64,000 nt of DNA from Halorubrum aquaticum. Lineage in GTDB: Archaea > Halobacteriota > Halobacteria > Halobacteriales > Haloferacaceae. Positions 48,089 through 57,371 of this stretch are shown here, piece after piece (positions within the stretch are counted from its first letter, which is position 1; every line of letters begins with the position of its first letter). The notes beneath the pieces are model-generated. The model was not told where the DNA came from and did not search any database. It worked only from the letters and a program-made list of their open reading frames with translations. The stretch spans positions 1 to 64,000 of the forward strand of contig NZ_FOPZ01000002.1 in assembly GCF_900113615.1 (NCBI RefSeq), read 5' to 3'. A program made the translations under genes and the position numbers.

Positions 48089-48319
48089 CTACCGGAGCCG
48101 TCGGGAGCTGTCGGTGAACTCCGCGGCCAGCCGGCTCAGATACCAGACGACGAGCAGCCCGAGGAGGAGCCCGCCGACCGCGGCGATCGCGAGCTGGGTC
48201 GGCGTCGGGTCCCCGATCATGGCGATGAGCGGCGGCGAGACGGCCACCAGCAACAGGAACCCGATCTTCACCTTCCGATTGCCGGCGTCGCGTTCCTCCC
48301 GCGACATCGGCTCTACCAT
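48089..48319 (-). CDS. Two-helix hypothetical membrane protein
   Basis: A 76-residue protein: a charged start (MSREERDAGNRKVK), two hydrophobic helices (about 18-36 and 42-62) and a basic tail. The ATG at 48317-48319 or the one four codons later could start it. Convergent with surE with 2 bp between. Function unknown. Confidence 0.65.
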   Translation of the reverse strand: MVEPMSREERDAGNRKVKIGFLLLVAVSPPLIAMIGDPTPTQLAIAAVGGLLLGLLVVWYLSRLAAEFTDSSRRLR

Positions 48320-48475
48320 CCCGTCCCCCCGGGGCGTGTGCGCCCCGATCCGAACCCTCGCGTCTCCATACCCGTTCCACGTCCCGGGCCGATATAATCC
48401 CGCTGACCGAACGCGGTCGGCCGCCGGTCGATCGACGGTCGACGACCCTGGCGGATCCGGCCGGTAGTCGATGGT

Positions 48476-48535
48476 TAATATATAAATCTCGCGACCGTTC
48501 ACGCCCGTCAGCCCGTCTCGACGGCGTGAACGGTC
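48476..48535. promoter_or_regulatory. Strong TATA with a 13-bp perfect inverted repeat
   Basis: TTAATATATAAATC (about 48475-48488) is the strongest AT-rich box in the area and is nearly symmetric, so it could serve both strands. It is followed by GACCGTTCACGCC (48493-48505) and GGCGTGAACGGTC (48523-48535), a perfect 13-bp inverted repeat around a 17-nt spacer. For plus-strand transcription starting near 48508 the arms straddle the start site; if it starts earlier, an RNA hairpin would form in a ~200-nt leader of gltX. The 386-bp gap 48320-48705 holds no gene. Confidence 0.5.
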
Positions 48536-48705
48536 TCGACGGTTTATCCCCGCGCGTCTCCGACGTGTCGACGCCCCTACCCGCGGCCCCGACGGCGGGA
48601 CGGGAGCGGGCGGGTCGCCGGCCTCTCGCCGACGCGATCCGCGTCTCCCGCCGTGACGCCGACGGTTTCGCGGCGTTTTTGAGTCGACCCCCACAACCCG
48701 ACGGT

Positions 48706-50478
48706 ATGGACGACGAACTCCGCGAGCGGGTCGAGGCGGCCGGCGAGGCGGCCGCGCTCTTCAACGCGCTCAAACACGGCAGCGACCCCGACGTGGGCGC
48801 GATCATGGGCCCGCTGATGGGCGAGAACCCCGAGTTCCGCCCCCACGGCGACGAGATCCCGGGCGTGATCGCGCCGATCGTGGCCGAGGTCGGCCGGATG
48901 GACGAGACGGAGCGGCGCGACCGGCTCGAGACGCTCGCGCCCGAACGGCTCGCGGAGCTCGAGGCCGACGACGAGGAGGACGACCGCGTCCTCCCCGACC
49001 TGCCGAACGCCGAGGCGGGCGCGGTCGTGATGCGCGCCGCGCCGAACCCCAACGGCCCCTGGCACATCGGGCACGCCCGGATGCCCGCGGTGATCGGGAC
49101 GTACAAGGAGCGCTACGACGGCGAGTTCATCTGCCGGTTCGACGACACCGACCCCGAGACGAAACGGCCAGACCTCGACGCCTACGACGCGATCCTCGAG
49201 GACATCGAGTACCTCGGCTTCGAGGCCGATCGCGTCCTGCGGGCGTCCGACCGCCTCGAGACCTACTACGAGCACGCCCGCGAGCTGATCGACCGCGGCG
49301 GGGCCTACACCTGCTCGTGTTCCGGCGAGGCGTTCTCGGAGCTGAAGAACGACGGCGAGCCCTGTCCACACCGCGGGAAGGACGCGGAGACCGTCCGCGA
49401 GGAGTTCGAGGCGATGGTCGACGGTGAGTACGACTCCGGCGAGATGGTCCTCCGCGTGCGGACCGACATCGACCACAAGAACCCGGCGCTGCGCGACTGG
49501 GTCGCGTTCCGGATGATCGACACGCCACACCCCCGCGAGGCGGCGGCAGAGTACCGCTGTTGGCCCATGCTCGACTTCCAGTCGGGCGTCGACGACCACC
49601 TCACCGGGGTCACCCACATCATCCGCGGCATCGACCTCCAGGACTCCGCGAAGCGCCAGCGGTTCGTCTACGACTACTTCGACTGGGAGTACCCCGAAGT
49701 CCTCCACTGGGGACACGTCCAGCTCGACGAGTACGACGTGAGCCTCTCGACGTCGACGATCAAGGAGCTCATCGAGGCGGGCGATCTGACGGGGTGGGAC
49801 GACCCGCGCGCGCCGACGATCCGGTCGGTCCGCCGACGCGGGATCCGCGGCGAGGCGCTCGTCGAGTCGATGACCGCACTCGGGATGTCGACCTCCGACG
49901 TGGACCTCGCGATGTCCTCGGTGTACGCGAACAACCGCGACCTCGTCGACGACGGGGCCGACCGGTTCTTCCTCGTGCGCGACCGCGCGGACGACCCGGC
50001 CGTCGAGCTACCGGTCGTCGACGGCGACGCGCCCGCGCCGGCCGCCGGCCGCCCCGCGCGACACCCCGACCACCCCGACCGCGGCGACCGGACGATCCCG
50101 GCCGGCCGGGTCCGTCTCGAGACCTCGGACCTCCCGCCGGCCGGCGAGCGCGTCTGGCTCAAGGGGTACGGCTGCGTGCGCCGCGCCGAGGAGGAACTCC
50201 TCTACGTCGACGCCGACATCGACGTGGTCCGGGACGGCGACGTCGACGTGGTCCACTGGGTCCCCGCGGCGGAGTCGCTCGAGACGCTCCTCCGCACCGT
50301 CGACGGCGACGTGCGCGGGTACGCCGAACCGGAGATCGCGGACGCCGCCGTCGACGACGTGGTCCAGTTCGAGCGGATCGGCTTCGCCCGGCTGGACTCC
50401 TTCGATCCCGAGGGGACCGACGAGCCGGACGGGCCGACCGGCGAGGAGGACCTCGTGGCGTACTACGCGCATCCCTGA
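48706..50478 (+). CDS. gltX: Glutamyl-tRNA synthetase
   Basis: A 590-residue archaeal-type (non-discriminating class) class I synthetase charging tRNA-Glu and, in organisms with GatDE/GatCAB, tRNA-Gln. The HIGH motif appears as PNGPWHIGHARMP and the KMSKS equivalent as DVSLSTSTIKE; the C-terminal beta-barrel anticodon domain runs from about 430. The ATG at 48706 fits the family start; an upstream open frame is low-complexity. Confidence 0.96.
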   Translation: MDDELRERVEAAGEAAALFNALKHGSDPDVGAIMGPLMGENPEFRPHGDEIPGVIAPIVAEVGRMDETERRDRLETLAPERLAELEADDEEDDRVLPDLPNAEAGAVVMRAAPNPNGPWHIGHARMPAVIGTYKERYDGEFICRFDDTDPETKRPDLDAYDAILEDIEYLGFEADRVLRASDRLETYYEHARELIDRGGAYTCSCSGEAFSELKNDGEPCPHRGKDAETVREEFEAMVDGEYDSGEMVLRVRTDIDHKNPALRDWVAFRMIDTPHPREAAAEYRCWPMLDFQSGVDDHLTGVTHIIRGIDLQDSAKRQRFVYDYFDWEYPEVLHWGHVQLDEYDVSLSTSTIKELIEAGDLTGWDDPRAPTIRSVRRRGIRGEALVESMTALGMSTSDVDLAMSSVYANNRDLVDDGADRFFLVRDRADDPAVELPVVDGDAPAPAAGRPARHPDHPDRGDRTIPAGRVRLETSDLPPAGERVWLKGYGCVRRAEEELLYVDADIDVVRDGDVDVVHWVPAAESLETLLRTVDGDVRGYAEPEIADAAVDDVVQFERIGFARLDSFDPEGTDEPDGPTGEEDLVAYYAHP

Positions 50479-55657: not shown

Positions 55658-56926
55658 ATGAGCCTTCCGGAACTACTGTCGGGGGCCGCCGGCGACGAGG
55701 AGGTCGTCGCGCGGGTCCCGCTCGGGGGGGACGACCTCCTCGCGGTCACGCCCACGCGAACGCTCGTGTACCGCGCCGACGGCCTGCTCTCCGACGAGAC
55801 CGTCGAGGAGTACCCGCACGACGCCGAGCGGATCGCCGTCTCGACCGGCCGGCGGAAGTCGAAGGTCGTCTTCGGCTACGGCCTCGACGGCGAGGAGACG
55901 CTCACGGTTCCGTCGAAACGCCTCGACGACGTGGTCCACCCCGTCCTCGCCGGGGTGCTCTCGGCCCGCGGCGTGACCGACCCCGGCGAGTCGGTCGCGC
56001 GGACGTTCCGCTTCTCCGAGCTCACCCTCGTCGTCACCGACAGCCGACTCGTGAAACACGTCGGCTCGGCCGTCTGGGACGAGGAGTTCGAGGAGTTCCC
56101 CTACGCCGACCTGACCGACCTCGACTTCGAGGAGGGAACCGTCGCGACCGCGGTCGTGCTCGCACACGACGGGCGATCGGAGCGGTTCAAGGCCCCCAAC
56201 GAGTCGGCCCGAGCCGTCAAGGAGAGCCTCGTCGACGCGGTGTGTGCGTTCCACGGGGTCGAGAGCCTCGAGGAGCTCCGCGTGGCCGTCGCGAACGACG
56301 CGGACGACGACGCCGCCGCCGACGACGCGCCGGAGGGGACGACGGGGACGACCGACTTCGGCGAGGGTCCCGACCCGCTCTCGGCGTCGCCCGCGGCCGA
56401 CGCTGAGGCGGCGACCGAGATGGAGTCCCCGTTCGAGACCGACCCGGACCCCGATCCGGCAGCGGTCTCCGAACCGACCGCGGAGACGGAGGCCGACGGC
56501 TCGACCGAGGCCGGCGTCTCGACGGGGACCGACTTCGACCGCGGCGGTACCGGCTCCGCCGGTCGCCACGACGAGGCCGACGGAACGATCGAAAGCGCCG
56601 GCGCGACCGACGTGACTGACGCCGGATCGGCCGTCGGGAACGACCCCCTCGCCGACGAGTTCGGCGGGGATTCGGCGGACGCGAACGGCACGGGTCCCGA
56701 CGGGACGGGGAACGCGGCGGCCTCGTCGACCCCGGCGGACTCGGGAGATCCGGCGGGACCGGACGGCTTCGAGGGGTCGCCCTTCGAGAGCGCCGGCGTC
56801 GAGGACGACGACCTCGCCGCCGAGGTCGCGGCGCTCCGCCGGACCGTCGAGGCGCAGTCGGCGAAGATCGAGCGACAGTCCGAGCTCATCGAGCGGCTCA
56901 TCGAGGAGCTTCGGCAGGGACGATAA
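55658..56926 (+). CDS. PH-like domain protein with long acidic linker and coiled-coil end
   Basis: A 422-residue protein. Residues 1-185 hold two related beta-rich domains, each with a LVYRADGL- or LVKHVG-like strand, resembling bacterial PH-like folds. Residues 190-375 are a Asp/Glu/Thr/Gly-rich disordered linker, and 380-420 is a coiled coil (RRTVEAQSAKIERQSELIERLIEEL). No signal peptide or membrane helix. The ATG at 55658 is used since an upstream ATG lies in a GATTTATGCC TATA-like element. Possibly a membrane- or cytoskeleton-associated adaptor; function unknown. Confidence 0.75.
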   Translation: MSLPELLSGAAGDEEVVARVPLGGDDLLAVTPTRTLVYRADGLLSDETVEEYPHDAERIAVSTGRRKSKVVFGYGLDGEETLTVPSKRLDDVVHPVLAGVLSARGVTDPGESVARTFRFSELTLVVTDSRLVKHVGSAVWDEEFEEFPYADLTDLDFEEGTVATAVVLAHDGRSERFKAPNESARAVKESLVDAVCAFHGVESLEELRVAVANDADDDAAADDAPEGTTGTTDFGEGPDPLSASPAADAEAATEMESPFETDPDPDPAAVSEPTAETEADGSTEAGVSTGTDFDRGGTGSAGRHDEADGTIESAGATDVTDAGSAVGNDPLADEFGGDSADANGTGPDGTGNAAASSTPADSGDPAGPDGFEGSPFESAGVEDDDLAAEVAALRRTVEAQSAKIERQSELIERLIEELRQGR

Positions 56927-56963: not shown

Positions 56964-57371
56964 TCACTCGGCGTCCCGACCGGTGACCTTCCGAATACAC
57001 GAGGAGCCGAACGGCCCGAGTTCGCCGGCCTCGAAGCGGACGAAGTGTCCGGTCGTGATACCCGCGCCGCAGCGTTTACACTCGAACTCGCCCTCGCGGG
57101 TGACCACCTGGCTGTCGTACTCGACGTAGGTTCCGCCTCGCCGGATCCGCAGACGGGCGTTCTCGCGCTCGATCACGCCGCGTTTCTCCGCCGTGTCGAG
57201 GATCTCGCGGGTGAGAGCGGGGTTCGTCGTCACCGTCTCGATCCGGTCCATCGCCTCGGGGAGCGCGAGCTCCTCGCGTTCGAGGTGCGCGAGGAGCTCG
57301 ACGGCGAGCTCCACCTTCTCAGCGCGCGTCGCCGGCTCGCTCACGCCCGAGGCGACGGCCGTGACGGACAT
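56964..57371 (-). CDS. Conserved winged-helix/zinc-ribbon-like protein (DUF5830-like)
   Basis: A 135-residue protein. The first half looks like a winged helix (ELLAHLEREELALPEAMDRI, LDTAEKRGVI); the second half has CKRC near residue 99 and a further Cys in GSSCIRK, suggesting a partial zinc ribbon. Its place beside pus10 resembles the haloarchaeal DUF5830 group; this label is tentative. Possibly a nucleic-acid-binding factor linked to tRNA metabolism. Confidence 0.65.
   Translation of the reverse strand: MSVTAVASGVSEPATRAEKVELAVELLAHLEREELALPEAMDRIETVTTNPALTREILDTAEKRGVIERENARLRIRRGGTYVEYDSQVVTREGEFECKRCGAGITTGHFVRFEAGELGPFGSSCIRKVTGRDAE

Follow-up and report, generated by a model that had tools for sequence, protein, structure and literature searches.

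The window, by which we mean the whole 64,000-nucleotide stretch of the Halorubrum aquaticum genome that was analysed, carries the glutamyl-tRNA synthetase gene gltX, an inverted repeat in the upstream region of this gene and, beyond the repeat, a divergent open reading frame for a small membrane protein (Table 1). A relative of this membrane protein is also encoded divergently from gltX in loci L127–L129 and L132. The initial annotation had described the repeat as 13 bp long, with a 17-nt spacer and a neighbouring TATA sequence, and both the sequence and the coordinates proved to be right. The region between the repeat and gltX had been considered otherwise empty; in fact a further TATA box, a start motif that is conserved between species and a promoter-like element close to gltX are located in it. 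Between the start motif and gltX the DNA shows little conservation, and its length ranges from 63 to 225 nt. An N-terminal extension of gltX from a GTG at 48526, from which the frame is open, was rejected for this reason.

Perfect 13-nt inverted repeats with a spacer of 3–30 nt were found at three places in the window, beginning at 48493, 55696 and 57266, whereas 20 random sequences of matching dinucleotide frequency contained 0.25 on average. The other two (55696–55742, spacer of 21 nt; 57266–57300, spacer of 9 nt) lie in a context that appears coding-like by eye. The repeat alone is only mildly unusual, and it is its conservation that counts.

Table 1. Features of the gltX upstream region and of the hairpin locus.
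Feature	Position	Strand	Remarks
Small membrane-protein ORF, divergent, 76 aa	48089–48319	-	No Pfam family above cut-off
TATA sequence left of repeat, TTAATATATAAATC	48475–48488		Precedes left arm
Left outward TATA box, TTAT	48482–48485	-	7 nt from half-site; TTWT in 48/49; putative leftward promoter
Left 13-nt arm, GACCGTTCACGCC	48493–48505		Exact match to the annotated coordinates
Left half-site, CGTGAACGGTC read outward	48493–48503	-	In 49/51 genus regions
Spacer between 13-nt arms, 17 nt	48506–48522		Weak dyad symmetry in many species; length varies in approximately helical steps
Right 13-nt arm, GGCGTGAACGGTC	48523–48535		Exact match to the annotated coordinates
Right half-site, CGTGAACGGTC	48525–48535	+	In 49/51 genus regions
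Right TATA box, TTTA, of predicted distal gltX promoter	48543–48546	+	7 nt from half-site in 49/49
Predicted transcription start G 48573 and near-invariant 5' end, GCCCCTACCCGC	48573–48584	+	CCCC 30–32 nt after box; antisense to apex of mptE-linked hairpin
gltX-proximal promoter-like element, GCGGCGTTTTT	48670–48680	+	ATG follows after about 30 nt; its T-run might also end a distal RNA
gltX, glutamyl-tRNA synthetase	48706–50478	+	PF00749, E 1.3e-58
Hairpin RNA upstream of mptE, strongly conserved apex CGGGUAGGGGUAC	L220:1478–1530 (G000:C11:12971–13026)	-	

Conservation of the repeat in Halorubrum

The gltX upstream regions of 52 Halorubrum species genomes were examined. The comparison covered 51 regions, as gltX of the 52nd genome (G031) is cut by the start of the contig. 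The repeat element is present in 49 of these regions and absent from two (L050 and L051). The 49 regions share a general layout, which consists of an outward box, 7 nt, a half-site, the spacer, the half-site CGTGAACGGTC, 7 nt, TTTA, 30–32 nt and the sequence (G/A)CCCCT(A/G)(C/T)CCGC. A search of 170 genomes of the family with the exact two-arm pattern gave matches in 37, all of them Halorubrum and each at a single place, except for G022, which has two; none of the family genomes from outside the genus contains the exact repeat.

Genus g6 has a single half-site upstream of gltX, and a TATA box follows it after approximately 7 nt. In genus g3 (L130, L131) the start motif lies 89 nt downstream of the half-site-like sequence ATCGTTCAC, which is possibly a diverged form of the operator. 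The genome of H. aquaticum contains 11 exact CGTGAACGGTC sites. None of the nine sites outside the repeat has a TTTA box 7 nt further on, giving no sign of a half-site regulon in this genome.

Two predicted back-to-back promoters and a conserved start motif

The TATA sequence at 48476 was considered as a promoter directed towards gltX. The comparison of species argues against this, as just eight of the 49 regions have a TATAWA that points inward and lies within 16 nt of the left arm, and a rightward start from this sequence was rejected because the other 41 have none. The TATA sequence left of the repeat faces left, away from gltX, while the rightward promoter is predicted to lie on the other side of the repeat. 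When read outward the left box is TTAT or TTTT in all regions but one, at exactly 7 nt from the arm, making it the mirror image of the right box, which is TTTA in 47 regions, TTTT in one and CTTA in one. TTWT is cited as a proposed haloarchaeal TATA motif in a passage of PMC4983044. The distance from each half-site to the TATA box that follows it is therefore fixed, being 7 nt on the right in 49/49 regions and, with TTWT as the box, on the left in 48/49.

In all 49 regions a run of CCCC begins 30–32 nt after the right box and is directly preceded by a purine, which is where transcription would be expected to start. The near-invariant predicted start in the genus is (G/A)CCCCTACCCGC, located here at 48573. 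A separate RNA beginning at 48493 had been suggested in the initial annotation; the idea of a separate RNA finds support in a changed form, with a predicted start near 48573 rather than at 48493.

The start motif was also sought outside the genus, using 59 regions chosen by hand from the 116 non-genus family genomes with a gltX match, g13 being among the genera left out. In these sampled genera of the Haloferacaceae the repeat is gone and the start motif is kept upstream of gltX in 34 of the 59 regions, representing 11 of the 22 further genera sampled. The strict pattern already demands A/G at one place and C/T at another, and it gave no match on the minus strand (0/59) or when reversed (0/59). 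Allowing one free mismatch raised the matches to 36 of 59 on the plus strand and left them at 0 of 59 on the minus strand. A purine occupies position −1 in 33 of the 34 regions with the motif, and 28 of the 34 have a TATA-like word 29–33 nt before the CCCC. Overall 38 TATA-like words fall at this distance and six elsewhere between 10 and 59 nt. The motif is missing from 25 of the 59 regions and from two of the 51 Halorubrum regions. Regions from other families, taken as the best 30 of 36 genomes, gave 0 of 30 matches on the plus strand and one single-mismatch match on the minus strand.

The promoter-like element close to gltX is also found in the two Halorubrum regions that lack the repeat, and in other families. 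Its presence even where the distal promoter is missing suggests that the distal promoter is an addition and not the sole promoter of gltX.

A probable DNA operator rather than an RNA hairpin

The outer distance between the half-sites is 43 bp in 36 of the 49 regions, 42 bp in six, 54 bp in three and 34, 41, 53 and 64 bp in one each. These distances correspond approximately to whole helical turns, placing the half-sites on one face of the helix, although the 34-bp spacing is about 1.5 bp off a full turn and its fit to the helical phasing is rough. Variation in steps of about one turn points to DNA rather than RNA as the form in which the element acts, since a hairpin loop would not need such steps.

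The initial annotation had also considered an RNA hairpin in a long gltX leader, with a stem that would be kept by compensatory changes. The RNA of the repeat region in the window does have a strong predicted fold (z −4.97), and the spacers show some dyad symmetry, with 49% of positions complementary in register compared to 20–33% out of register, both of which would be expected of a transcribed stem. When this symmetry was folded as RNA the results were mixed, with a mean z of −1.1, and the extra symmetry is read as part of the operator or as a weak secondary constraint. The position of the repeat and the pattern of substitution speak against a stem. The arms are upstream of the predicted rightward start, the left arm lying between the two promoter boxes, and the left-hand TATA seldom offers an inward promoter that could transcribe them. 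The arms have changed in 16 of the 49 species, and in 14 of these the change affects one arm only (13 species) or unmatched positions (L030), leaving two (L015 and L018) with shared changes. Among 48 distinct rows 97.9% of arm positions are paired, barely above the 97.5% obtained in shuffles, and just three cells carry a double change. This is not the pattern of compensatory change that a leader hairpin would show inside its transcript. With arms that vary mostly independently and precede the predicted start, a hairpin in the gltX leader was rejected, and it is highly improbable that the repeat is transcribed as a stem. A T-box or other Rfam element upstream of gltX was likewise rejected: at the gathering score only tRNAs were identified in the window, and positions 48090–48800 gave one sub-threshold match at E ≤ 10.

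The suggestion that the repeat is an operator is well supported by its conservation and by its geometry, both in the spacing of half-site and box and in the approximately helical steps between half-sites, and the predicted distal promoter is well supported by conservation too. The repeat next to gltX is probably a conserved protein-binding switch between two back-to-back promoters and not an RNA hairpin.

A conserved hairpin RNA upstream of mptE

The genome of H. aquaticum contains four exact CCCCTACCCGC sites, one of which is that of gltX. The reversed control gave seven, and the word itself is therefore not enriched. There is no enrichment either in three genomes of g34, a genus of another family, where six sites were found against 30 for the reversed control. 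Another of the four sites (L220) lies between folP and mptE, in a stretch with matches in 51 of the 52 genus genomes. On the mptE strand this stretch contains the promoter-like sequence AAGAGAAA..TTAT followed by a long hairpin with the apex CGGGUA-GGGG-UAC. The sequence GTACCCCTRCCCGNG occurs in at least 140 of 194 genomes of the class, with seven control matches, and 25 of the 30 loci examined from these matches are situated just upstream of an mptE relative.

The hairpin was aligned using 25 distinct sequences (alignment A2) from 42 loci (L232–L273) that had been found with the motif itself. Five loci without an mptE-type promoter were skipped, repeats and non-matching rows were dropped, and loci L384–L393, which largely duplicate earlier places, were left out of the counts. 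The stem covaries, with 96.8% of cells paired and 31 double-change cells compared to 9.1 in shuffles, of which 0 of 500 reached as high a value; structures slid along the alignment were at most 41.9% paired. As the sequences were gathered with the apex motif, the invariance of the apex in this alignment is partly due to selection. A model of the hairpin only (R2), built from 20 of the 25 sequences, matches 176 of the 194 haloarchaeal class genomes at E ≤ 1, leaving 18 without a match. When 20 hairpins were picked regardless of the motif, 13 had the exact apex CGGGTAGGGGTAC and seven differed. The differing apexes comprise four from g13 (L420–L423), which have the apex CUGGGUAGGGGUAC and are one letter off, two from g17 and one from f3. 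A search of seven loci against Rfam 15 (E ≤ 1) gave no match at the hairpin and one sub-threshold match away from it.

Further copies of the hairpin in g19, g20 and f6 (L394–L401, L410–L412, L245 and L248) have a TATA-like box of their own, and many of them are followed by a T-run after the stem; these copies look like free-standing genes. In f6 and g70, mptE starts approximately 50 nt after the apex, and the hairpin is there probably part of the mptE leader.

Complementarity between the gltX start and the hairpin apex

The gltX start motif is the exact antisense of the hairpin tip CGGGUAGGGG. The complementary stretch is 10–11 nt long in Halorubrum and reaches 17 nt in other genera (GTACCCCTACCCGNGTG), so that in 12 genera, all from one family, the complementarity with the 5' end of gltX is conserved over 10–17 nt. 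When the apex of H. aquaticum was compared with 42,652 overlapping windows from the 64 kb, those at the gltX start were the best at −30.6 kcal/mol, sharing this rank with one other place. With the 24-mer that begins at 48573 the apex gave −30.5, a value reached by none of 2000 target shuffles. The openness of the gltX 5' end is 0.63 compared to 0.56 with shuffled bodies, only a slight rise (54 of 83), and it is 0.46 in H. aquaticum itself.

Sixteen substitutions were identified in the gltX core next to the box, five within the genus and 11 outside. Of these, 14 (A to G or C to T) keep G-U pairing with the hairpin, and two break the pairing. All 14 are transitions, which are common anyway, and they give mild support only. 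The variable position next to the apex differs between hairpin and gltX in several genera among the matches listed, producing a mismatch, and no consistent co-variation of this position was seen. In g17 the gltX motif is absent (0/3) and the apex is changed (2/2), as expected if the two go together. The motif is also absent from g12, g14 and g20 (0/9), where the exact apex is kept. No shared C-rich partner site was found in the three g34 genomes besides the hairpin itself. As many lineages lack the gltX motif and most class genomes have the hairpin, the apex must have another job too. The hairpin would then have a wider role, with gltX as a client acquired in the Haloferacaceae.

Proposed mechanism and alternatives

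The reading that we prefer is that an activator-type operator drives a second, distal transcript of gltX with a 5' end to which the hairpin RNA can base-pair, and we assign it a probability of roughly 0.52. This reading starts from properties that were computed, namely the conservation, the fixed geometry, the approximate helical phasing, the covariation of the hairpin and the exact complementarity. From these we infer the binding of a protein, activation, the start of transcription, and RNA pairing in the cell together with its effect. A DNA-binding protein would occupy the two half-sites from one side of the helix, and it is probably an activator, since each half-site is placed just upstream of a BRE/TATA region. 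When bound, it would activate the distal gltX promoter with its box at 48543 and predicted start at G48573, and possibly also a leftward transcript, perhaps towards the small membrane-protein gene. The distal transcript would begin with GCCCCUACCCGC, offering the hairpin RNA with its GGGG tip a C-rich stretch on which to land. These first letters of the transcript and the apex of the hairpin between folP and mptE complement each other exactly, which suggests that either the hairpin RNA or the mptE leader can pair with the transcript. Pairing might alter stability or translation, marking the distal transcript for decay or blocking its use, while the proximal promoter would supply a basal gltX mRNA free of pairing. 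The unusual leader-based control of a tRNA synthetase that the initial annotation had considered may thus exist, by pairing with a separate hairpin RNA and not by way of the repeat.

Two other readings differ in what they make of the distal transcript. The first part of this scheme might be all there is, with CCCCTACCCGC serving as part of the promoter, either like an initiator or as a downstream site for a protein. Its complementarity to the apex would then be a coincidence or the mark of a shared protein site. All of the promoter geometry can be explained in this way without RNA pairing, and the absence of enrichment of the 11-mer in the genome and the retention of the apex in genera without the gltX motif are in keeping with it. 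Against it, the gltX consensus of other genera, GTACCCCTRCCCGNGTG, fits the reverse complement of the hairpin over approximately 16 specified positions among the matches listed, the core substitutions mostly keep G-U pairing, and where these letters occur at hairpin loci they make up the tip of a stem that covaries and not a start site. We regard this explanation as somewhat unlikely. It is also conceivable, though unlikely, that the product of the distal promoter is not a leader of gltX but an independent small RNA, terminated at the T-run in front of gltX and acting on the hairpin linked to mptE. Such an RNA would suit the GC-rich stretch followed by TTTTT directly before gltX, the poor conservation and variable length of the RNA body next to a nearly invariant first 11–12 nt, and the existence of a separate proximal promoter-like element for gltX even where the distal promoter was not found. 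The T-run, however, is conserved also where the distal promoter is absent, and it is better read as part of the gltX promoter than as a terminator of this RNA.

The preferred reading, of an operator-driven gltX transcript that the hairpin can recognise, may be extended tentatively to the whole class. A class-wide hairpin RNA with a GGGG apex, which would be an mptE leader and, in some lineages, a free-standing small RNA, might recognise a dedicated second gltX transcript in the Haloferacaceae by pairing of its loop with the 5' end. If this holds, the output of glutamyl-tRNA synthetase would be coupled to pterin/folate genes, and control of a tRNA synthetase at the RNA level would exist in archaea, with an operator-controlled target and a conserved hairpin as its built-in parts. 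To our knowledge a target is known for very few archaeal small RNAs, and none of them is known to act on a tRNA synthetase. In the present case a conserved hairpin with no match in Rfam 15 is complementary to a conserved site where the gltX RNA is predicted to start, and the 43-bp operator with its nearly invariant half-sites offers a handle for finding a regulator of a tRNA synthetase gene in haloarchaea. No description of the pairing or of the hairpin family was found in full-text searches of literature that lies mostly outside the subscription journals.

Comparison with known systems

In bacteria the T-box and leader attenuation control aminoacyl-tRNA synthetase genes at the RNA level. The likeness to the present case is the proposed RNA-level control upstream of a tRNA synthetase gene; the difference is that the gltX region has neither an Rfam match nor a conserved leader structure. 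The upstream activating sequences of haloarchaea, of the GvpE/Bat kind, directly precede the BRE/TATA region with constant spacing. The operator resembles these in being a short motif at a fixed distance from BRE/TATA, here also in divergent orientation, and differs in its sequence CGTGAACGGTC, in its dyad with spacing in approximately helical steps and in the tRNA synthetase gene downstream.

Among known small RNAs, HM42_V of Haloferax mediterranei is a 58-nt RNA located between HFX_2905 and folP, as listed in Table 2 of PMC5852579. Its position beside folP and its length, the two features compared, fit the hairpin RNA, and the passages of PMC5852579 that concern it describe no class-wide family, apex or link to gltX. 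The conserved structure and covariation expected of a small RNA were seen in the hairpin, and the position of HM42_V suggests that it may be expressed (PMC5852579). Two other small RNAs of H. mediterranei in the same table adjoin tRNA synthetase genes, HM3_V at aspS and HM56_V at pheS (PMC5852579), and RNA near synthetase genes may be a wider theme. Trans-acting small RNAs of archaea are represented by sRNA162 of Methanosarcina mazei (PMC3510493), sRNA132 of Haloferax volcanii (PMC6560208) and s194 (PMC6104027), and the system proposed here shares with them a small RNA that is thought to pair with mRNAs. The contact proposed here is distinct in joining the apex of a loop to the very 5' end of a transcript, in 12 genera.
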